Assembly: GCA_026707945.1 (NCBI GenBank)
Contig: JAPOVV010000077.1
Location: 186,001-250,000 of the forward strand
DNA from: Gammaproteobacteria bacterium
Lineage (GTDB): Bacteria; Pseudomonadota; Gammaproteobacteria; Pseudomonadales; Azotimanducaceae
Direction: 5' to 3'
DNA: 64,000 nucleotides
In this document: piece by piece, positions 1,933-57,094 of the stretch
Position numbering within the stretch: position 1 is the first letter of the stretch
How the letters are laid out: every line of letters starts with the position of its first letter
Notes under the pieces: generated by a model
The model's input: the letters and a program-made list of their open reading frames with translations, nothing else
Database searches by the model: none
Told to the model about the DNA's origin: nothing
Program-made: the position numbers and the translations under genes

Positions 1933-2764
1933 CACGATCCACCAATCGCATTAGGACTAGCACGCCAACACACCCAATGACCATGCACGCGATCACAGCA
2001 AGCATCTGCGCATCGATACTCAAGACGGGTAGTTCCGGTAAATCCGAATCCGATCTCCAAGGCCACGCACGATACACCGTACTAGCGACCAGACCGATGA
2101 AAAACGCAAGCATCTGTTGTCGATAACGCCGGATCCCACTCGCAAGGACTCGCGGCACTATCGCAAACGCTAGCGCCATACCTGCCGCAAAAAGTGCAAG
2201 TTTTGTCACTTCCAAGTCTCGAACAGCTTCAAGCGTTGGCACCCAAATCCCCATTAGCAACAACATCATAGAACCAGATATTCCAGGAAGTATCCAGGCA
2301 CTAAAAGCACCGATTCCACCGATCGCGAACATCCACAAAGGAGGTTCTAACGACGCGGGTGGGAGAGCCACGATGGGGATACCGATGAACAACCCAACCG
2401 GTACGAAGCGAATCAAGTATTGGGTATCGACAGTGCGTGTGAGGTGAATAACTACTCCTACAACAATCCCCAATATCGCGCCCCAAAATAGCTGAGGTGT
2501 TCGACCCACGAGTTCGAGGATCGTCAGCATTGATGCGATGAAACCGCACACCATCCAAAACCCAAGTTGAACGAGGAACTTAAGCGAGGCTAGCCAAGAC
2601 GCACGTTCAGCATCAACCGCGCGAAACTTGGCAATTTGGCTCAGTGAATTAATGAGTTTGTCATATATCTGTGTGAGCAACGCAATGGTGCCACCAGAAA
2701 TCCCTGGTAGCACTTCAACAATGCCCATTAACAAACCGCGCCAACACAACCCTAGCCAGGTCAT
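1922..2764 (-). CDS. DUF368 membrane protein, PopT-type undecaprenyl-phosphate translocase family
   Basis: This is a polytopic membrane protein of about 280 residues. The DUF368 hallmark is two inverted-repeat loops, PGISGGT near the N-terminus and PGISGSM in the middle, each followed by hydrophobic helices. DUF368 proteins were shown to take part in undecaprenyl-phosphate recycling across the inner membrane. A longer open frame exists upstream, but the family begins at the MTWLGLCWRG methionine, whose ATG overlaps the pcm stop as ATGA, a coupled start. It lies in the same transcription direction as uppS, which makes the lipid's precursor, and between pcm and nlpD where this family is not standard. 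The function is inferred from the family, not proven here. Confidence 0.8.
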   Translation of the reverse strand: MTWLGLCWRGLLMGIVEVLPGISGGTIALLTQIYDKLINSLSQIAKFRAVDAERASWLASLKFLVQLGFWMVCGFIASMLTILELVGRTPQLFWGAILGIVVGVVIHLTRTVDTQYLIRFVPVGLFIGIPIVALPPASLEPPLWMFAIGGIGAFSAWILPGISGSMMLLLMGIWVPTLEAVRDLEVTKLALFAAGMALAFAIVPRVLASGIRRYRQQMLAFFIGLVASTVYRAWPWRSDSDLPELPVLSIDAQMLAVIACMVIGCVGVLVLMRLVDRDVA

Positions 2765-4701: not shown

Positions 4702-6002
4702 TCAAATCCTTTTGAACTTGGCGAATTCGCTGGCTCCTCCAAACGCTAGGGTCTCGACTTGCTCTTCGATACGCAACAGCCGGTTGTATTTCGCGACTCT
4801 TTCGGATCGCGATGCTGAGCCGGTTTTGATCTGCCCGGCTCCCGTACCTACAGCGATATCGGCGATCTTGGTGTCTTCCGTTTCACCCGATCGATGCGAG
4901 ACAACAGTAGTGTAATCATGGTCATGCGCCACACGCATGACATCCAATGTCTCGGTAACTGTACCTACTTGATTCAATTTCACCAAAACTGAATTTGCCA
5001 TACCTTGTGCGATGCCGTCGAGAACTCGCGCCTTATTCGTTACGAACACGTCGTCACCGACTAGCTGCGTCGATTCGCCAAGTCGTTCCGTCAATCGTTG
5101 CCAATCATCGAATCTCGACTCAGCACATCCGTCCTCAATCGACATCATGAACGGGCATGCGGCTTTGATTTCTGCAAGCGAATCGATCATCTGAGCCGGT
5201 TCTAAAGGCGGTGAACCCGCTTCCGCAGCGTAGCCGCCTTCGTCGTAAAACTCGGTGGCGGCACAGTCTAACCCGATGTAACAATCGACGCCAAGCTCGT
5301 AACCCGCATCCCGAACTGCATTACTTAAAAATTCAAGCGCGTCGTGATTTGAATCCAAATCCGGCGCGAAACCACCTTCATCGCCAACCGCTGTCGATCG
5401 CTTTGGCTGTGCATTCTGCAAATTCTGCTTGAGCACGTGGAAGACTTCAATTCCAATGCGTAACGCTTCGCGGAACGAGCCACCACCCACCGGAATCACC
5501 ATGAATTCCTGAAAAACGACATCGTTGTCTGCATGCGCGCCACCGTTTAGAACGTTCATCATCGGTACAGGCATCCGCATAGGCACAGAGTCGTAAAGGT
5601 CGTTGACATGCTGGTAAAGCGGCACACCTTTCGCACGTGCTGCAGCTTCTAACGTCGCAAGTGACGCGCCAAGGATGGCATTCGCACCGAGATGTTGTTT
5701 ATTTGGTGTGCCATCAAGTGCGATCAACCGTTCATCCACGCCCGCTTGGTCAACTGCATCAAGTCCATGAAGACCTTCAGCGATGATGCCGTTAACGTTA
5801 GCGACCGCTTGAAGTACGCCTCTACCCAGGTAGCGTTTAGGATCTTCGTCGCGTCGTTCTACGGCTTCAAACGAACCCACTGATGCGCCGGACGGAACCA
5901 TCGCTGATCCGATAGAACCGTTACTTAGATGAACGTCGACTTCAACTGTCGGATTGCCGCGTGAGTCAAGAATCTCCCGGCCGTGTACCGCGACGATCCT
6001 GC

Positions 6003-6006
<4 letters not shown>
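4702..6006 (-). CDS. eno: Enolase (phosphopyruvate hydratase)
   Basis: Enolase converts 2-phosphoglycerate to phosphoenolpyruvate. At 434 residues it is full length. Catalytic and metal-binding segments are present: [40 protein letters not shown] and [18 protein letters not shown]. The mobile substrate loop reads [10 protein letters not shown] rather than the near-universal SGASTG (Thr to Val at residue 43), while the metal-ligand serine is kept. The start is TTG, overlapping the kdsA stop as TTGA, so translation is probably coupled to kdsA. It lies between kdsA and ftsB, the Pseudomonas order. Confidence 0.97.
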
Positions 6007-8566
<2,560 letters not shown>

Positions 8567-8603
8567 CTACAACAGGTTGCTTGATTCACTATGCACCCGC
8601 ACC

Positions 8604-9839
8604 TTACAGCAGCGGGTCTACTCGACGCCATTGCGGTACCCAGCCGCCAGGTGAGCAAGCCGAAGAAGCAACCCCTAGACCCGGTACCGCCACTAATTGT
8701 TCGTCGCGATAAAACAATGGCCAAGCCTCACGCTCCCACGGCGGTACGTTTTGATGGTAGAACCATTTCGAGAGCTGTACCCTTCGTTTGTTTAGTTGAA
8801 GCGTCTCGCCTCCTTTTCTCGCGACGCAACGAAGCCGAGTGCCCGAACGCAGACCAACGGTTTCTTTCCGCCACTCTAACCTACCAAACGCATAACTGCA
8901 ATCTTCACCGACGTTTATCGAATGCTCGAGGAGTGGAACCGCGACGGGGACGACAAAGAACAAACCTTTAAATCTGCGCACACTCGCGCTCGAAGACACC
9001 CGCACGAGAACCTGCGCGTCTTCGCGAGCAGTTGCTTGGCGCATGATCTCATTCACGACGGCGGTCTTCGGTGTGATGTCAAACGCATGGAGCCATGCCC
9101 GTACTCGCGTCGAATCCTGCGAAAGCGCTTCAGCTTCAATGGGTTCACGACTCATCTTCGCCAGCGGAGGTTCTTTCAGCCGCAATAGCTGCGACTCAAA
9201 ATCTAAAAAAGCTGTCCTTAGGCGGGGTAAAACTTCGTGTCGAAGCGCGTTTCTAGTAAGTGAAACGTCTAGATTCGATTCGTCCTCGATCCAACGCCAT
9301 TTATTTTGACGCGCGATGCATAGCAATTCGTCACGTTTGTATTCAAGCAATGGTCGCCAAAGACGCCCACGCTTCAAATTTCGCCATTCGGCAATACCGA
9401 CAAGCGCCCTACCCGTGGCGAGCTGCCACATTAAGCTCTCCAATTCATCATTTAGATGGTGCGCAGTGGCTACAACGTCTCCTGCGCTTAGAATCCCATC
9501 AAAGACCTTTAATCGCTCCCGACGACCTTCGAATTCTGGATTTCGACCTGTCAACGTAATTCGACGTCGTACAAACGTCAGACCTAGTCGAGCAGCAACT
9601 GATTCGCAGTGTGTCTCCCACGCGTCCGCGTTACTACTCAAGCCATGGTTAACATGCAAGACTGTTACGAGTTCTGAATCGAAAGCTCTCGCGGCTGCGT
9701 GTAATAAGACCGTTGAATCAACACCGCCGCTGAAAGCGATCCAAAGTCGACTAGCAGGTTCGAGGTCTAATTCCGCAAGCCGTCGAATGACCTGACCGAG
9801 CGAAACGTCGTTAGTTCGCGACCTTTTGAAATCCGACAT
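8604..9839 (-). CDS. tilS: tRNA(Ile)-lysidine synthase
   Basis: TilS ligates lysine to cytidine 34 of tRNA-Ile2(CAU), changing both charging and codon reading. The PP-loop ATPase motif AFSGGVDSTVLLHAA is near the N-terminus, followed by HHLNDELESLMWQLATG, a variant of the usual ADDQAET region. The C-terminal TilS substrate-binding domain is present (GETLQLNKRRVQLSKWF and PPWEREAWPLFYRD). The frame opens at TTG 9857, but ATG 9839 is the more likely start and gives 411 residues; either start lies inside the 3' end of dnaE. In most relatives accA stands between dnaE and tilS; here there is no room for it. Confidence 0.92.
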   Translation of the reverse strand: MSDFKRSRTNDVSLGQVIRRLAELDLEPASRLWIAFSGGVDSTVLLHAAARAFDSELVTVLHVNHGLSSNADAWETHCESVAARLGLTFVRRRITLTGRNPEFEGRRERLKVFDGILSAGDVVATAHHLNDELESLMWQLATGRALVGIAEWRNLKRGRLWRPLLEYKRDELLCIARQNKWRWIEDESNLDVSLTRNALRHEVLPRLRTAFLDFESQLLRLKEPPLAKMSREPIEAEALSQDSTRVRAWLHAFDITPKTAVVNEIMRQATAREDAQVLVRVSSSASVRRFKGLFFVVPVAVPLLEHSINVGEDCSYAFGRLEWRKETVGLRSGTRLRCVARKGGETLQLNKRRVQLSKWFYHQNVPPWEREAWPLFYRDEQLVAVPGLGVASSACSPGGWVPQWRRVDPLL

Positions 9840-12800
9840 TGACGACACTGAGTCCAAAAATTTCGCGCAGTTCTTCCAACACCCGATCGGTTACCGGGAG
9901 CTTCCGATAGCCTTTACCCAGATTGACCCGCAACGCGGCACTATCTTTGTGAATTGCGATCTCGACCCGACGTCCTTCTCTGCGCTCGAAATGCTTGAAG
10001 ACCTCTTCGAATTTATGTAAGTTATCAGACGTCAGTAGGGTGCGCGTCTCGTCAGTTTCGAATCGTAGCGTAATAAACGCTTGCCAGTGCTTTCTAGCGC
10101 TGACCACATCAAACACCGCGCTAGCGGACAATTGATGCTCGTCGCGAAAACTGTCGTAACGCATGCGCCCTTTAACGACCACGAACTCGTCATCAATTAC
10201 GTATCGCGAATACTTGCGATACTGATCTGACCAAAGAATGACACTTAGAGAGCCTTGCTGACCTTCTAAAGTCAACGTGACTATCTCACCGCGGTTAGGT
10301 TGAAAACGTACCTCCGAATCCCTGATCTTACCAGCGACAACGATCTCCTCATTTCTTTGTGCTGATTGAGCTTCATACAAAGTGCACGTACAAATTGATT
10401 CAAACTCACGGAAATATGAACGCGCGGACTCGTCACTCACCGCGAATCCAATGGTCTGCTTTTCCCCGTCGTGTAGTGCGTCTTTCGATAAGGGTTCGGG
10501 GGCAACGTAGTTAACGAATACCTCTTTCTCCTGAGGACCGCCGAACAAGCTATGACTTGATTGCGTACCGTCTGTTCCGGCTTGATATGCGAGTTCTAGT
10601 TTGTCAAGAAGCACCGCTCGAACTAACTCTCGCTTTTGAAACTCCGGTTCTATCAAGTCAAGCGCACCTGACTTTATCAGCCTCTCTATGGTGTTGCGAT
10701 GCATCTTGGTCACGTCGATTCGCGTGCAAAAATCGAAGAGACTTGTGAATTCCTCTTCGCCAAGTGCTTGTTCTATGGTGCGTACGTCCCCTTCTCCAAC
10801 TCCTTTCAGACATGGCATGCCAACTCGCAACCCATTCTCCAACGGGACACAATCAAGTGTCGGCCGATTCACGTCGGGTGGTTCCATCATGAACCCCATC
10901 CGTTCAGCTTCCGCGAGAAGTCGCCGAACGCGGTTCGGATCACCTCGCTCAACAGAAATCGCTGCTGCCATGTATTCGTGAGGGTAGTTGGCTTTTAGGT
11001 ATGCAGTCTGATATGTAACGACGGCGTATGCGGTAGAGTGCGCCTTTGGAAAAGCGTATTCAGAGAACCCCAACATTTTTTCGTAGATTTCTCCCGCTAT
11101 CCTCGGGTCGATGTGTTTTTCGCTGCAACCTTCGGCGAATCGGTCCTTTAGTTCCTCGAGTTTCTCTCGAATCTTCTTCCCCATTGCCTCTCGAAGGATA
11201 TCTGCTTCTCCGCCAGAAAATCCGGCGAGAGCCCTCGAAACACTCATGACATCCTCTTGGTAAATCATGAGCCCATAGGTGTTTTTTAATACCGATTCAA
11301 GTAACGGGTGATCGTAGCTAACTGCCTCCTCGCCGCGCTTTCTTAACGCGTAGCTCTTGTCGACACCAGCGTTCAAGGGTCCAGGTCGAAACAGTGCGAC
11401 GAGCGCGACGATGTCGTCGAACTTATCCGGTCGTAGTTGTCGAATCAACCGTTTCATCCCGGGTGATTCCAATTGAAAAACACCTTCTGTGTCCGCAGCT
11501 GCGATTAGCTTGAAAGTACTGCGATCGTCAAGCGGAATCTGTGTGGGTTCGAGACGAGGTTCGCCGTCTTGTAGTTTCTCGTTAATAAACTGGATCGTTC
11601 GATCGATGACGGTCAAGTTTTTTAGACTCAACAGATCGAACTTAACCAATCCAGCTTTTTCGACATCATCTTTATCGAGTTGTGTGACAAGCAAATTGGT
11701 ATCAGTATCGAGCTCACATGGCACGTATTCCTCAAGACGATCGGGTCCAATCACAATCCCTGCCGGATGTATGCCTGACGTTGCCACGATGCCTTCAAGT
11801 TTCTTGCTTTCGTCCAGTAGCTCGGTGCAACCGTAGCGTTCCGCAGTTTCTTCTATCCTAGGTTCTTCCCGGCAAGCATCCTCCAATTTCGTACCCGGTT
11901 TGGTTGGAATCAACTGTGTGATTCGAGATACGTCGCTATGCGAGTACTCGAGCGCTCTACCCATGCCATGGACGATACCTTTTGCTGCGAGCGTACCTTG
12001 GGTGGCTATCAAACCTACACATTCCCGACCGAATTGCTCTACCAGATGCCACATTACTTCATCGCGGCGTTTCGCACAGAAATCGATATCCAAGTCGGGC
12101 ATAGATCGTCGATCGCGATTGAGTAGCCGCTCAAAGAAAAGATTGTGTTTGATTGGATTCAATCCCGTGATTCCAAGCAGCATGGCAACCAACGATGCCG
12201 CACCTGATCCGCGGCCCGGTCCGACTGGGATCCCGTGCTCTTTCGCCCATAAGACGATGTCTCGAACGATCATGAAGTACCCGGCAAAGCCCATTTCAAC
12301 GATCACTTCTAGTTCGTATCTGGCACGCTCCCGGTACGTATCAAACTCGGATTCATCAATGTCAGACTGTTCGTCTGATAAGAATGCTTCAAGCGCTTCA
12401 TTGACCGTCGTATTTAGTATCTCGTTGTTTTCATTCTCCGTCGGTTTTGGATATGGACGCTGGAAGTACTTACCCGTTTCAACCTCTACGTTACATCGTT
12501 TTGAAATCTCAACCGTGTTCTCAATTGCGTCGGGTAGATCTGCAAATTGCGCAGCCATCTCGTCAATGGAGCGTAAATACTGATGCGGACTGTAGTGGCC
12601 TTTCCAAGAGTAGGTCTCACCCATATGTTCGCTACGTTGAATGCAAAGTTTCGCGTCGTGAAGCGAAAAGTCATTCTCCGATACGCAAACAACGTCGTTC
12701 GTAGCGACGAGGGGGACGTTTTTCGCTGCGGCAAGCGGGACGATTGAATCAATGTAATCGTTCTCATCGATACGACCAGTCCGGGAGATCTCTGCATAAA

Positions 12801-52620: not shown

Positions 52621-54252
52621 TTAACTGAATCTCCATACGTAGACGTTGAACTGCGCCTGCATCAATCGTTCGATCCAGAGACGCTGATTAGGTCGCAATT
52701 GGTCGCCTGGACCTTTGACCTCTACAAATGCAATCTCACCGTTTTGATCTATCACAGTCAAATCCGGAAACCCGGCACGAAATTGTCGAAGATCTTGAAT
52801 CACAATCCTCAACAGTTTTTCGAGTTGATCTATCGTCATAGCATCAAGAATCGAGTTGAGTAGACTAGGTGTCAGAATCGGCCACGCGACAAGTTGGCTA
52901 CTGATTCCGCGCTTATGGCGAGCAGTTGCAAGGATCCGAGTTTTTAGTTCAATCGGACGAGCAAGTGGGTCTTCACAAACGTCTTGACGGACGCGAAAGA
53001 ACTCTGGCCAATACAGGTCCAGTGGGGTAGCTTGGAACGGGTTTACAAACGCACCACGTACAGAGGCATATAGCCAGTCCCAATACGCCAACGCAAATAG
53101 ACCATTCGGGAGCAGATTTTCCAAATGCCATGCTTGAGACCCTTCGTCCATAAGCTGTTGAGTGGCAAACGACTCAATCCTTTGATAGTCCGTAGTGGGT
53201 GCTAGGTCCTCCCGAATCTCGATTTTTTGTTGCGGTAATCTTGGTCTTCCGAATCGTTGGGCGAACGCATGTTCTTCATACGAACGTGGCGCTTTCAGGA
53301 TATCGACCCTGACTCGTTCTACGTCCTCGGTTCGGCCTTCTTTCATCAAAATGCGCATCGTGCGTTCGCGTGCGGGATGCGCGGTCGAGCTTCGAAAGCA
53401 CCGTAGCGCTAGGTTGTGTTCGTTCGCTCGTTCTAAATTGCGACCTAGAGCATTCAAAGTACGACTACGACGTAGTTCAAAGACGCGGTCTTTCTCCCGC
53501 TTCTTAAGCGCACGATAGATTGATTTCGCGTCCTCAGTCGATACAGCTTTACCGAGAGTTTCAACGACTTCCGCTAGCTCGCTAAGTTCTATATAGCGAT
53601 CAATAGCTCGCCTAGTCTGGAACAATCGAAATGCTGGATCCAACTCATACGTTTCGAATCGCGTGACGCCGAGATCGCGAATGACGAACTCGTCGAGCCT
53701 TTGCAACGAATTTCCAAAGAACAGCAGGCAGAAGAATTCGAATGATTTCGTCGCCGTTACAAGCAACCACGGACAGCACTCACTAACGCGATCGCGAATG
53801 ATTTTGTCATCATGTTCCGACAGTATCGTGTCGACCAGCTCGGACTTTCTTCCTTTCAATTCACTTTGAATGAATGTCGACTTCAATTCTGCCACGGTCA
53901 GTAAGGCAAGTATTTCGGTGCTATCACCTTCTGCATTAACAGCAATCAGACACGCCTTCCTCAACTCTTCGAGCGCTGTTGAAACGTCATCAACGTCCGC
54001 ATACGCGAGTGAATCGATTCGAATATAGCTCTTTGTTCTTGAAAGGAGCCGCGCGAGCAATCGCAGCGCTGAGACTGATAACGATAACGTGGACTCAGCG
54101 AATCTCGACTCGTCAGCTGTTAGGAGATCACTGTACTGATTACAAACCGTACTGATGACCGCAGTTAGATTCTCCGCGTAGTAACCGTCCGGTGGCGCTT
54201 GATTGGGGGCTAAACGAGGCAATGTGCGATCCGTGATACCACCCGTTATCAA
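52621..54252 (-). CDS. FAN1-like structure-specific nuclease (VRR-NUC domain)
   Basis: This is a homologue of Fanconi-associated nuclease 1, which cleaves 5' flaps and takes part in interstrand crosslink repair; bacterial versions exist. A SAP-like DNA-binding segment is visible at about 117-145 (LLTVAELKSTFIQ), then helical repeats, and the C-terminal VRR-NUC domain with Asp497 in GFPDL, Glu511 and Lys513 in VEVKGPGDQL. The 543 residues are in the range of bacterial FAN1. The start is TTG. The operon partner is the nuclease-helicase downstream. No LexA-type box was found upstream. Confidence 0.88.
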   Translation of the reverse strand: MITGGITDRTLPRLAPNQAPPDGYYAENLTAVISTVCNQYSDLLTADESRFAESTLSLSVSALRLLARLLSRTKSYIRIDSLAYADVDDVSTALEELRKACLIAVNAEGDSTEILALLTVAELKSTFIQSELKGRKSELVDTILSEHDDKIIRDRVSECCPWLLVTATKSFEFFCLLFFGNSLQRLDEFVIRDLGVTRFETYELDPAFRLFQTRRAIDRYIELSELAEVVETLGKAVSTEDAKSIYRALKKREKDRVFELRRSRTLNALGRNLERANEHNLALRCFRSSTAHPARERTMRILMKEGRTEDVERVRVDILKAPRSYEEHAFAQRFGRPRLPQQKIEIREDLAPTTDYQRIESFATQQLMDEGSQAWHLENLLPNGLFALAYWDWLYASVRGAFVNPFQATPLDLYWPEFFRVRQDVCEDPLARPIELKTRILATARHKRGISSQLVAWPILTPSLLNSILDAMTIDQLEKLLRIVIQDLRQFRAGFPDLTVIDQNGEIAFVEVKGPGDQLRPNQRLWIERLMQAQFNVYVWRFS

Positions 54253-54375
54253 GGTGTGAACGAGGCAACGACGCCGATTCTTTTATGGTTGTGAGCTGCT
54301 GGTAGGCGAGTTGGCATTATGATTGCACTGCAGTTGTGAACTTGAAGGGAACTTTAAGGTCAAAACTGTAAACAT

Positions 54376-54391
54376 TGACGTAATTACGTCA
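54376..54391. promoter_or_regulatory. Perfect 16-bp palindrome, possible operator
   Basis: TGACGTAATTACGTCA is identical to its reverse complement, and a TTGACG -35-like hexamer overlaps its left end. It lies 78 bases before the ATG of the HvfA-like gene and 124 bases from the FAN1 start, in the divergent region. A dimeric repressor or activator site is likely from the symmetry; the regulator is unknown. No -10 at 16-18 bases from the TTGACG is visible. Confidence 0.45.
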
Positions 54392-54468
54392 GGATGGCGG
54401 GACCTGGTACAGAGACTTCTGGGTCAGTTGCTCGCTTACAAATTGGTTTTGGATGATTGAGGAAAACT

Positions 54469-54735
54469 ATGTCCAAACTCTCTGTTAACCCTCTCGTCTT
54501 AGGAGTGGGTGCTTTTGTAGTAGCAACCGCAGGTTCCTCGGTTCTTGCCGCAGATATGGATGCAGCGCTCGATACGAGTGCTTTAGATGACTCCCTTCTA
54601 ACGATCGCTGGCTCTCATGAAGGTGAAGGTGAATGCGGTGAGAAAGACGAAGAAGGTAAGTGCGGCGAAGGCCAATGTGGTGAAGACGACGGCGGCGAAG
54701 AAGAGGAAGGTGAGGAAGAGGAAGAAGAAGCCTAG
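54469..54735 (+). CDS. HvfA-like small secreted protein with EGxCG motifs (putative copper-binding RiPP precursor)
   Basis: This is an 88-residue protein with a Sec signal peptide (1-27, cleaved after VLA), a spacer, then three EGxCG motifs (EGECG, EGKCG, EGQCG; Cys56, Cys65, Cys70) and a poly-glutamate tail. EGKCG-repeat peptides of the HvfA/bufferin type are modified by a DUF692-family multinuclear iron oxygenase with a DUF2063 partner to give copper-binding groups. The motifs and signal peptide are seen directly; the modification is inferred. No DUF692 or DUF2063 gene is in this window, so the precursor is orphan here. The ATG 54469 has GAGGA just upstream, while a TTG at 54457 has no such site. 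It is a single-gene unit ending at a strong terminator. Confidence 0.7.
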   Translation: MSKLSVNPLVLGVGAFVVATAGSSVLAADMDAALDTSALDDSLLTIAGSHEGEGECGEKDEEGKCGEGQCGEDDGGEEEEGEEEEEEA

Positions 54736-54792
54736 CTTCGACTGACTTCGCTATGTCCGATTAGTTCATAGCTTCTACTCATCGAAAGTAGC

Positions 54793-54830
54793 AAAGCCGT
54801 GGGTGCTTGCATCCACGGCTTTTCTTTTTT
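54793..54830 (+). terminator. Strong intrinsic terminator after the HvfA-like gene
   Basis: AAGCCGTGGGT pairs with ATCCACGGCTT (11 base pairs with one G-U) around a short loop, followed by TTCTTTTTT. It closes the small gene 58 bases after its stop and separates it from the barrel gene downstream. Confidence 0.85.
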
Positions 54831-54985
54831 CTAACAATCGAATCCGTTCTCTCGCTACGTGCCTCTGTCACAACCTAAAGAATTCATCTGAATCCTATAA
54901 TTTCATCCGCAGCGCCCGCGCAAAACTACACGCTTCATCGTTTATATTCAGCGACTATCGGCTATCTAAACACGCCAAGATCACC

Positions 54986-57094
54986 GTGTCGAACTTCGCT
55001 CACCTCACTAGCATAGGGTTTCGCTGTCAGCGACTGCTCGAAGTCGTGATCGCATCTTGCTTTGCCTTTGTATCTATTTCAATAGCGGCGCAACAAACCG
55101 TCGGGACGTCTCAACCTGCTCCCAAACTCTTAGATGCCATCAGTGACCAAACACTTTTTCTCAATCCTGTGTACGTCGAAGCTGCGGGATCGGTTGCGTC
55201 ACAAAGGATTTATTTACGGGATCTACATCTATCTTTCGGAGAGTCAACCGATCAGAAGTTCTCCGCCTATCCGTACAACAAGTCGGTAGCAGACGCATGG
55301 GTTGTTGAGAACTTTCTCATCGTATTAGCGAAATCAGTCGGCTCCGCACAGGTCGCTGTAACAGCTTCCAATGAATTCGGGTCAATGATCGACTGGTTTA
55401 TCGTCCACGTCGAGGAGCGCAAAGAGACGGAACGTTCGAATCAGGCGAAAGCAGTCTTTCAGTCTGAATTCTTGACGGCGCCTATTAGCTTCAAGAGCGA
55501 AATTACTCTGCGATTGCCAGAACTTACTACGGGTTCAGCGAAATACCTCATCGCACCCGACCTACCCTCTGGACTTGTATACGACGAATTAAATAAATCG
55601 ATTCGTGGTCGCCCGGAGGGAGGAATACCCTCATCGACTTATTACTGGATTGGTGTATCAGATTTGGGAGCAGGTATTCAGCAGTTCACTTTCGCTCCTC
55701 ACCAGGAGCGAGAAGTCGAGGCCGCGACATCGAGCGTGTCCACGCCAGTCCTTAGTTTCGAAGAGTCGCTCCCACCAACGATCACAGTCGATTCAGCTAG
55801 TTTCGTAGACCATCGATCGTCAACTTCACCACGTGCCACACCAACGGGATCGGTCGCAGCGTCGCGGCCGTTCCGACCGGAAAGTAGTGATATTTCAACC
55901 CATCAGAATCTCCTGCACGGCGTAACTAGCGCGATGCACTCGCGCTTTCGCGATGTGTCATTGCGACAAGCTGGTTCCGAACCAAGTACATATACCTTGT
56001 GGAACTACGCCAGCACGCGCTACTCTGCCAATTCATCGCGACCTGGCATCGAGCCTTCAGGCATTTACGTGGGTTTCGACACCAAGCTCGTAGAGAACAT
56101 TACGACAGGATTGACCATCAGTTTTGATAGCCAAGGATTCACAAACACCTCACTGCGGAACTCGAATCGCACTCACGACCTGGCAGGAGCGAACCTCGCT
56201 AGCATCCTGCCCTATGCCCGTTGGCACGATGGAAGTGGCGCAGAAATCTGGGGCGTAGTGGGTCTAGCTCGAGATTTGTCAGAATTCGACGGCACTAATG
56301 CGCCGAATTCAGACTTGCGTAGTCGAAATCTTCTCTTAGGCGCTGTAGGATGGCGGCAACTACTCGGTTCAACAGGTAGTGTCCAACTAGCGACGGTTGG
56401 AGACGCGGGTCTCACCATTCCATTGCGCTCAGGCGCAATTGATTCGGATCAAGGGCTATTGACCTACATCGGTTCGCGAAGCCTCAGCGCAGGATTGGAA
56501 ATGTCCTTCTCCGGTGAGCAAGTACAACCGTATGTTGGATTGAGCGGTCGCATAAATAGCAGTCCCGAGACTCGAGACACGTCATTAGAAGCTCTCGGGG
56601 GCGTTCGTTACACCTCGCTAAGCGGCTTAACGTTTGAAGCTGAAGGACGCGCACTTTCAGCCCAAGACGTGTTTGAAGATCCCGAACTGGTGTTCAGCGT
56701 TGCAGCGCATCTAGATCCAGGTCTGCGTGGTGAAGGACTAGCGCTCTCAGTCTCGCCAATGTATGGTGTCAATCGATCTCAAGGGTTCCTAACGCCCGAT
56801 TCGGCGTTTCGCTACTCTCATTACGGAGACGAAAGATTTACCACGAGTCATCAAAATGCTTGGGCGATGAGCGGCTCGCTAAGTTACGGCGTACCGGTTG
56901 GTGGCACTGGCGTTATCACGCCTTTCGGGCAAATCGCGATTTCGACCCTCAACCAAACGCGTATGGGAGTTCGTGTAGCGCTTAATTCAAGCCTTGACCG
57001 ATTGTTCAATCTCGAGATCGCGACCGTACAGTCTCGATTTGATCAGCAGGAGTTCGACAAAGGCGTCGACATTCAGCTCCGGCTTGTCTTCTAA
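54986..57094 (+). CDS. Putative outer-membrane protein: Ig/cadherin-like N-terminus and beta-barrel C-terminus
   Basis: A long frame opens inside the terminator at 54803, but that part cannot be transcribed from the small gene and lacks a signal sequence. GTG 54986 starts a plausible signal peptide (hydrophobic LLEVVIASCFAFVSISIA, cleaved near AQQ). Two cadherin/dystroglycan-type or putative-Ig repeats follow (LVLAK-like segment with VTASNEFGS, then LPSGLVYDELNKSIRGRP). A Ser/Thr-rich linker comes before about 300 C-terminal residues of alternating beta strands ending IQLRLVF. This is an outer-membrane barrel of autotransporter-like style. The 702-residue product has no recognised enzymatic motif. 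The passenger may bind a ligand or surface. Confidence 0.7.
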   Translation: MSNFAHLTSIGFRCQRLLEVVIASCFAFVSISIAAQQTVGTSQPAPKLLDAISDQTLFLNPVYVEAAGSVASQRIYLRDLHLSFGESTDQKFSAYPYNKSVADAWVVENFLIVLAKSVGSAQVAVTASNEFGSMIDWFIVHVEERKETERSNQAKAVFQSEFLTAPISFKSEITLRLPELTTGSAKYLIAPDLPSGLVYDELNKSIRGRPEGGIPSSTYYWIGVSDLGAGIQQFTFAPHQEREVEAATSSVSTPVLSFEESLPPTITVDSASFVDHRSSTSPRATPTGSVAASRPFRPESSDISTHQNLLHGVTSAMHSRFRDVSLRQAGSEPSTYTLWNYASTRYSANSSRPGIEPSGIYVGFDTKLVENITTGLTISFDSQGFTNTSLRNSNRTHDLAGANLASILPYARWHDGSGAEIWGVVGLARDLSEFDGTNAPNSDLRSRNLLLGAVGWRQLLGSTGSVQLATVGDAGLTIPLRSGAIDSDQGLLTYIGSRSLSAGLEMSFSGEQVQPYVGLSGRINSSPETRDTSLEALGGVRYTSLSGLTFEAEGRALSAQDVFEDPELVFSVAAHLDPGLRGEGLALSVSPMYGVNRSQGFLTPDSAFRYSHYGDERFTTSHQNAWAMSGSLSYGVPVGGTGVITPFGQIAISTLNQTRMGVRVALNSSLDRLFNLEIATVQSRFDQQEFDKGVDIQLRLVF

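Follow-up and report, generated by a model that had tools for sequence, protein, structure and literature searches.

An HvfA-family precursor gene lies apart from a conserved hvfBC pair in one clade of a gammaproteobacterial genus

The maturases HvfBC and FonBC oxidise the cysteines of repeated EGxCG motifs in their precursor peptides to 5-thiooxazoles, according to excerpts of PMC13419390 and PMC13097082. The excerpted text of a survey of MNIO systems (PMC12452194) notes bufferin precursor genes that are unlinked to MNIO genes, some of the stand-alone ones being single-gene units, and does not settle whether unlinked precursors stay unmodified or are acted on by enzymes encoded at a different locus. 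Genome mining for RiPPs mostly seeks a precursor that adjoins its enzymes. Modification at a distance is known from the prochlorosins, where one enzyme, ProcM, modifies precursors encoded elsewhere in the genome.

The stretch of DNA analysed here, termed the window (64,000 nucleotides; C8:186001-250000), belongs to a 96% complete draft genome, G000, whose 117 contigs total 3.8 Mb. An open reading frame on its plus strand, with an ATG at 54469 and a stop codon running through 54735, encodes an 88-residue peptide, and an alternative TTG start 12 nt upstream of the ATG would extend this to 92 residues. The gene, referred to as hvfA, and its parts are as follows.

54469-54735, plus strand: hvfA, precursor peptide of 88 aa (open reading frame, NF050137 domain, orthologues and selection)
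54469-54549, plus strand: signal peptide, residues 1-27, predicted by eye (sequence and aligned homologous N termini)
54625-54681, plus strand: core with EGECG, EGKCG and EGQCG (the same in all six genomes in which hvfA lies at this site)
54682-54732, plus strand: acidic tail (sequence)

Residues 1-27 look Sec-like by eye, with K3, a hydrophobic stretch and the sequence SSVLA before the putative cleavage point, which is followed by Ala. This putative signal is followed by a spacer, the arrangement EGECG-EKDE-EGKCG-EGQCG (residues 53-57, 62-66, an exact EGKCG, and 67-71) and the acidic tail. The preliminary description had read the locus as a signal peptide with three EGxCG motifs and an acidic tail in the manner of HvfA, and the sequence of the 88-residue frame fits this layout. 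The HvfA-like reading is likewise supported, both by the HvfA-family domain model NCBIfam NF050137, which the peptide passes (23 bits, cut-off 19.5), and by relatives of the gene that adjoin hvfBC. The HvfA equivalog model NF050188 is not reached (15.2 bits, cut-off 95), nor is it reached by any of the five operon-linked relatives scanned (14-51 bits), so this model is narrower than the HvfA family. By these models the product is assigned to the HvfA family at the domain level and not to the HvfA equivalog. Among four other orthologues from genomes with the same arrangement, the G154 peptide passes NF050137 (22.3 bits), those of G007 and G124 fall just under (18.8 and 18.7 bits, both exceeding the cut-off in the genome-level search) and that of G040 scores 14.5 bits, under the cut-off; of the five operon-linked relatives four pass and G150 gives no match. 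A Pfam search of the peptide at E values up to 1 returned zero families. The 20-residue cysteine core is identical in all six genomes, and EGECGEKDEEGKCGEGQCGE is invariant across them, the G040 peptide having otherwise drifted (67% identity before the core). With NF050137 above its cut-off, orthologues in five further genomes, low dN/dS and an identical cysteine core, 54469-54735 is judged to be a real gene and not a chance reading frame.

The peptide carries three EGxCG motifs, and the operon-type precursors whose complete sequence was read carry four to six. EGECG is frequent in operon-linked relatives. At E values up to 10, NF050137 matched only hvfA in the whole G000 genome; further small EGxCG proteins, which the preliminary description had suggested looking for, thus did not emerge from this profile search. 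A search of the same genome for the bufferin precursor family DUF2282 at E values up to 1 gave no match either. Identity as a bufferin, considered as a candidate, was rejected on this result and on the scores of the enzyme, which exceeds the HvfB cut-off but not that for BufB.

The G000 genome holds a single DUF692 match (C8:25397-26188) and a single DUF2063 match (C8:25084-25341). The two genes, hvfB and hvfC, are adjacent minus-strand genes immediately following a DEAH helicase gene, taken here to be hrpA, and lie on the same contig as hvfA at a distance of about 214 kb. The DUF692 protein exceeds the HvfB equivalog model NF003818 (414 bits, cut-off 360) and stays under that for BufB (260 bits, cut-off 310), whereas the DUF2063 protein exceeds the HvfC equivalog model NF050145 (231 bits, cut-off 142) and contains both DUF2063 and NGO1945_C. 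HvfB matches the solved MNIO structure PDB 3bww at 9e-67, with the VNN and DTH motifs aligned. In an alignment of 25 rows (18 from the genus and seven from other genera; the HvfB tree likewise has 25 rows), H81, H116, E160, N194/N195, H223, D237 and H239 are invariant in all 25 and E266 in all 24 lettered rows. These residues presumably make up the metal site, as in the known structures. The same assignment also rests on the excerpted text of PMC13419390. As the preliminary description had stated, DUF692 and DUF2063 genes are missing from the vicinity of hvfA, the sole matches in the genome being those some 214 kb away. Its term orphan holds locally and fails genome-wide, given one HvfB and one HvfC equivalog on the same contig; the genome search that it proposed found one gene of each kind, side by side, and the absence of any DUF692-type gene, which it had named as grounds for abandoning the idea, is contradicted by this match. 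A second DUF692 gene could be missing from the assembly, since the genome is a 96% complete draft.

A six-frame translation of 16 kb around hvfBC contains no EGxCG motif. DoxX was rejected as a partner: no DoxX gene is linked to the hvf genes of G000, the only one in the genome lying elsewhere beside DUF1801, and the two genes scanned 3' of hvfC in G081 are not DoxX. Just 3' of hvfC in several of the genomes that share the G000 arrangement (L002 4791-6588, L071, L115) are genes that by eye resemble PIN-domain genes, probably toxin-antitoxin pairs.

Both hvfA, by profile search, and DUF692 are present in all 18 genomes of the genus. The order hrpA-hvfA-hvfB-hvfC occurs in 12 of them, within a single contig in ten (G081, G097, G146, where hvfC is covered only in part, G063, G113, G133, G140, G150, G152 and G153) and broken by a contig end in two (G151, within hvfA, and G155, within hvfB). 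In the other six (G000, G007, G124, G156, G154 and G040), hereafter the split genomes, hvfA adjoins fan1 and hvfBC stays behind hrpA. By the bounds of protein matches, hrpA and hvfB overlap by 28-34 bases in four of the six and are separated by 5 bases in G040 and 30 in G154. On the other side of hvfA, five split genomes have an autotransporter-like gene; in the sixth, G154, the contig stops short of this position and is identical to the reverse complement of the public JAGWBO010000093.1. None of the 18 genomes has two hvfA loci, a second match in G151 being a contig break, and each split genome has one MNIO match.

In the HvfB tree the six split genomes form one clade (100/99), with the operon-type G150 as its sister (95/88). 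The HvfA tree, which covers 16 of the 18 genomes (all except G153 and G155) and in which G150, G097 and G040 are long rows, likewise places the split six on one side of a branch (99/96) and G150 next to them (99/98). Because the split genomes form a single clade in the HvfB tree while the others keep the operon order, hvfA appears to have moved once, in the ancestor of the six, with the hvfBC pair kept. Within this clade HvfA, HvfB and HvfC are under purifying selection: over five pairs excluding G040, Nei-Gojobori dN/dS is 0.022-0.064 for HvfB, 0.049-0.108 for HvfC and 0.034-0.072 for HvfA, most dS values other than those of HvfA being near saturation and the G040 pair being saturated for every gene. 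The autotransporter-like gene evolves faster than the hvf genes (0.15-0.17, three pairs). HvfA has a low dS, 0.47-0.95 as against 1.2-2.1 for HvfB and HvfC in the matching G000 pairs, as would be expected for high expression or for an additional constraint on the RNA.

The site at which hvfA now lies in G000 is bounded by two genes.

52621-54252, minus strand: fan1-like VRR_NUC nuclease, left neighbour (Pfam VRR_NUC and FAN1_HTH over cut-off; on this side in all six split genomes)
54986-57094, plus strand: autotransporter-like outer-membrane gene, right neighbour (Pfam Autotransporter match weak and below cut-off; start codon unsure)

The fan1 gene was found in 17 of the 18 genomes, the exception being G150. 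In the 11 non-split genomes that have it, neither hvfA nor the autotransporter-like gene occurs in the stretch inspected around fan1; its partner is an AMP-ligase-like gene in seven and an HpcH-like gene in G155, and no gene of the reference set faces fan1 in the other three (G063, G081 and G146). As both genes are missing beside fan1 in these 11 genomes, hvfA and the autotransporter-like gene look like a single inserted block. Near full-length matches to the autotransporter-like protein, which is about 700 aa long and fast-evolving, are confined to the six split genomes among the 18 searched; eight other genomes give partial matches at 24-32% identity, mostly within much larger open frames.

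The sequences flanking hvfA contain candidate control elements, all on the plus strand.

54337-54361, plus strand: ECF (RpoE-type) promoter motif TGAAC-N17-GTC, 132 nt before the ATG (motif and spacing kept in relatives)
54362-54468, plus strand: 5' leader (strongly conserved in the alignment of the six split genomes)
54376-54391, plus strand: leader hairpin 1, palindrome TGACGTAATTACGTCA (six pairs, two changed on both sides, 94% of cells paired)
54396-54436, plus strand: second predicted leader stem-loop (RNAalifold consensus; near-invariant, with compatible pairing and no proof from covariation)
54793-54832, plus strand: terminator-like hairpin of hvfA (stem 54793-54822, then a T-rich tail)

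The promoter motif is presumably of the ECF, or RpoE, type, a label that we give it by resemblance. In the form [GT]GAA[CT]-N17-GTC, having first been spotted by eye in some of the same genus sequences, it stands 101-132 nt before the hvfA ATG in 14 of the 16 genus members examined (G153 and G155 being outside the 16), the misses being G097, where a run of N intervenes, and G150. It precedes hvfA at the old and new sites alike. In other genera, 29 hvfA loci were scanned, of which 26 were scored and three had no usable start. The motif was found at the exact spacing of 17 in 13 of the 26, lying 74 to 325 nt upstream of the start taken, where mononucleotide shuffles would yield 0.43, and ten alternative spacings (12-16 and 18-22) gave 0-3 matches each; the 26 are not independent trials, because the loci are related and are the best-scoring ones of the profile search. 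Over both strands of the whole window, 17 is also the commonest of nine spacings counted (18 sites, compared with 7-17 for the eight others). The presence of the motif in half of the scored loci of other genera suggests that many hvfA genes of this bacterial family answer to an envelope-stress-type sigma factor, which would help to explain when the peptide is produced. A sigma-54 promoter at TTGGCATTATGATTGCA (around 54311), whose -24/-12 spacing fits in G000 and G154, was rejected, because G007, G124 and G156 lack the GG at -24 and G040 lacks the GC at -12. No sigma-70 promoter was found within 54200-55000.

An upstream palindrome noted in the preliminary description is real and corresponds to hairpin 1. 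It varies across relatives yet still mostly pairs (G040 has GATGC-TTCG-GCATC) and is for that reason read as a probable RNA hairpin near the 5' end of the transcript rather than an operator. In 500 shuffles the observed value was reached 43 times for doubly changed pairs, 41 times for the percentage paired, 35 times for the covariation score and 298 times for the number of pair types; since shuffles reach the observed values, the covariation is suggestive only and the leader structure is not claimed as proven. A model of the leader built from the six split genomes, with 150 candidates scored in each of the 18 genomes, found only those six below an E value of 0.3, the next best standing at 0.37. 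In Rfam, four sub-threshold matches all fall at 54707-54842, covering the end of the gene and the terminator, and the leader has none. A short upstream reading frame in the leader, seen by eye, is unsupported; it changes amino acids and stays open in G040. The terminator that the preliminary description gave the gene corresponds to the terminator-like hairpin and T tail 3' of hvfA. The stem is kept in all six split genomes with changed bases; a strong T tract follows it in G000 and G154 only, and G124 and G156 have a weak one. The transcript at the new site would start with hairpin 1, run on through the conserved leader and stop at this terminator-like hairpin. It is a long shot, though a conceivable one, that the leader is a new metal- or stress-responsive RNA element controlling translation of hvfA, within a clade-wide split pathway in which a stress sigma factor drives the precursor mRNA and the enzymes are made with hrpA.

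Taken with the observed gene content, gene order, clade, selection and motif conservation, the reading that we hold to be highly probable is that, after a single relocation, HvfBC matures HvfA in trans into a Sec-exported, Cu(I)-binding peptide, the modification and copper binding being deduced from related systems. In the ancestor of six of the 18 genomes, hvfA would have left its place between hrpA and hvfBC and settled, together with an ECF-type promoter motif, between fan1 and the autotransporter-like gene, while hvfB and hvfC would have remained behind hrpA, abutting or overlapping it. An envelope-stress sigma factor would drive hvfA. In the cytoplasm, the RiPP-recognition domain of HvfC would bind the precursor and present it to HvfB, an iron enzyme, which would oxidise two or three of the EGxCG cysteines to 5-thiooxazoles, with a loss of about 4 Da per cysteine. 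Sec would then export the product as a periplasmic Cu(I) buffer. The chemistry, export and copper binding are attributed to HvfA on grounds of family membership. Precursor and enzymes would thus arise from separate transcripts and act in trans, a separation that may permit induction of the precursor with enzyme production tied to hrpA. The excerpts of PMC13097082 give a loss of 8 Da for two repeats. They also report that FonBC poorly processed a variant with Glu before Cys in both repeats, and the first motif, EGECG, may accordingly stay unmodified. A role in copper stress is not a safe assumption, as a related cluster in Microbulbifer was not detected in the proteome and showed no copper response in the part of PMC12538549 consulted.

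An artefact of assembly or binning as the source of the split was rejected and has practically no chance of being correct. G000 is a draft, and in five of the six split genomes the two loci lie on different contigs, which is what such an artefact could produce; against this, both loci share one contig in G000, the hrpA-hvfB and fan1-hvfA junctions lie inside contigs in all six, and six separate genomes belonging to one clade agree. Possible, but doubtful, is a different origin for the gene at the new site, namely that it is a second precursor, gained by duplication or transfer, whose counterpart in the operon was later lost. Its place in a block with an autotransporter-like gene that has no near full-length matches in the other 12 genomes would suit such an origin, as would the failure to find a counterpart of the leader in operon-type genomes among the 150 candidates scored in each. 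The absence of any genome with both loci among the 18 argues against it, and so does the agreement of the HvfA and HvfB trees on the split group and on G150 as its nearest relative, G150 and G040 being long rows in the former.

What the peptide does at the new site could also differ from the relatives. It is improbable that HvfA has become a secreted, acidic, cysteine-bearing metal binder that goes unmodified, with HvfBC serving another substrate or being lost: hvfA and hvfBC do form separate transcription units and the motifs number three instead of four to six, but strong purifying selection acts on HvfB and HvfC in the split clade, the G000 genome has no other recognised precursor, and the motif core is invariant while the remaining peptide drifts. 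We consider it very unlikely that the relocated peptide works with its autotransporter-like neighbour, for example in display on the cell surface or in supplying copper at the outer membrane. Each of the five split genomes whose contig covers both genes has them side by side, and near full-length matches to the neighbour are confined to this clade; yet a terminator-like hairpin lies between them, the neighbour evolves faster (dN/dS about 0.16) and Pfam recognises no metal-binding family in it. Between the options raised in the preliminary description, an unmodified protein and modification in trans, the latter is preferred, because the hvfBC pair appears to have been conserved after one relocation and the EGxCG and DUF2282 searches revealed no other candidate substrate. 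HvfBC could nonetheless serve another, unrecognised substrate. Distances in HvfA and HvfB are correlated (r 0.968, 16 genomes), which shared phylogeny alone would also give.

Separation of transcripts may often have begun within the operon. A hairpin lies between hvfA and hvfB in all nine operon-type genomes folded there, and the eight bases that follow it include at most four T in G081, G097, G146, G063 and G152, five or six in G113, G133 and G140, and seven in G150. With a hairpin and a T run separating the two genes, precursor and enzyme transcripts may already be partly uncoupled in these operons, most clearly in G150, where on contig C115 a strong terminator-like hairpin stands between hvfA (about 2302-2610, minus strand) and hvfB (1255-2070). 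G150, a genome that is 87% complete, is a possible intermediate state. A terminator exclusive to G150 was rejected in view of the five or six T in G113, G133 and G140. At eight operon-type loci the intergenic stem-loop is long, changes in sequence, is followed by two to six T and may set the ratio of precursor to enzyme.

Across a sample of 150 genomes of the family, a profile search with NF050137 exceeded the cut-off in 61; among the matches listed, 62 could be placed in 60 genomes and 53 of these have a DUF692 gene within 3 kb. The remaining nine comprise three split genomes, four matches at contig ends (G070, G019, G100 and the second G125 piece), a second locus in G031 and the locus in G016. 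These counts are lower bounds, as NF050137 misses the operon-type precursors of G113, G133 and G140; G040 was also in the sample and missed. In G016, from another genus, hrpA-hvfA on C155 (about 5044-10282) is followed by a transposase-like ORF, identified by eye, at the place expected for hvfB, and no DUF692 match was found in this draft genome, so that the precursor is apparently without its enzyme. The second locus of G031 (C4, near 8474-8695) is of the EGKCG type; this genome has three DUF692 genes, all of them on other contigs.

Compared with the oxazolin system HvfA-HvfB-HvfC of Haemophilus influenzae and the fontiphorin system FonABC, the locus has in common a putative signal peptide, as judged by eye, repeated EGxCG motifs and maturases that are HvfB and HvfC equivalogs. 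It differs in the distance of about 214 kb between the precursor gene and hvfBC, in having three motifs only, in lacking a linked DoxX and in not reaching NF050188. With the bufferins Buf1 and Buf2 (BufABC) it shares an MNIO with a DUF2063 partner and a cysteine peptide exported by Sec, the export here being predicted, whereas it lacks a DUF2282 match and its enzyme scores under BufB and over HvfB. ProcM is a lanthipeptide system in which a promiscuous enzyme acts on many precursors, unlike the one precursor and one enzyme pair seen here. The split clade therefore offers a clean natural test of modification at a distance: a single precursor faces a single enzyme pair, the draft yielded no further MNIO and the sister lineage, which keeps the operon, can serve as control, so that the question can be tested with little confusion. 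Sigma-factor genes occur in Buf1 clusters, as noted in the excerpts of PMC12452194. In comparison with the stand-alone precursors described there, the relocation here is traced to one apparent event in one clade, each split genome has one MNIO match and both halves are conserved; no traced relocation of such a precursor appeared among the matches listed in the open-licence literature, as far as its excerpts go. Unlinked precursors of this kind are thus known, and what appears to be new is a relocation traced to a single clade in which the enzymes have been kept.
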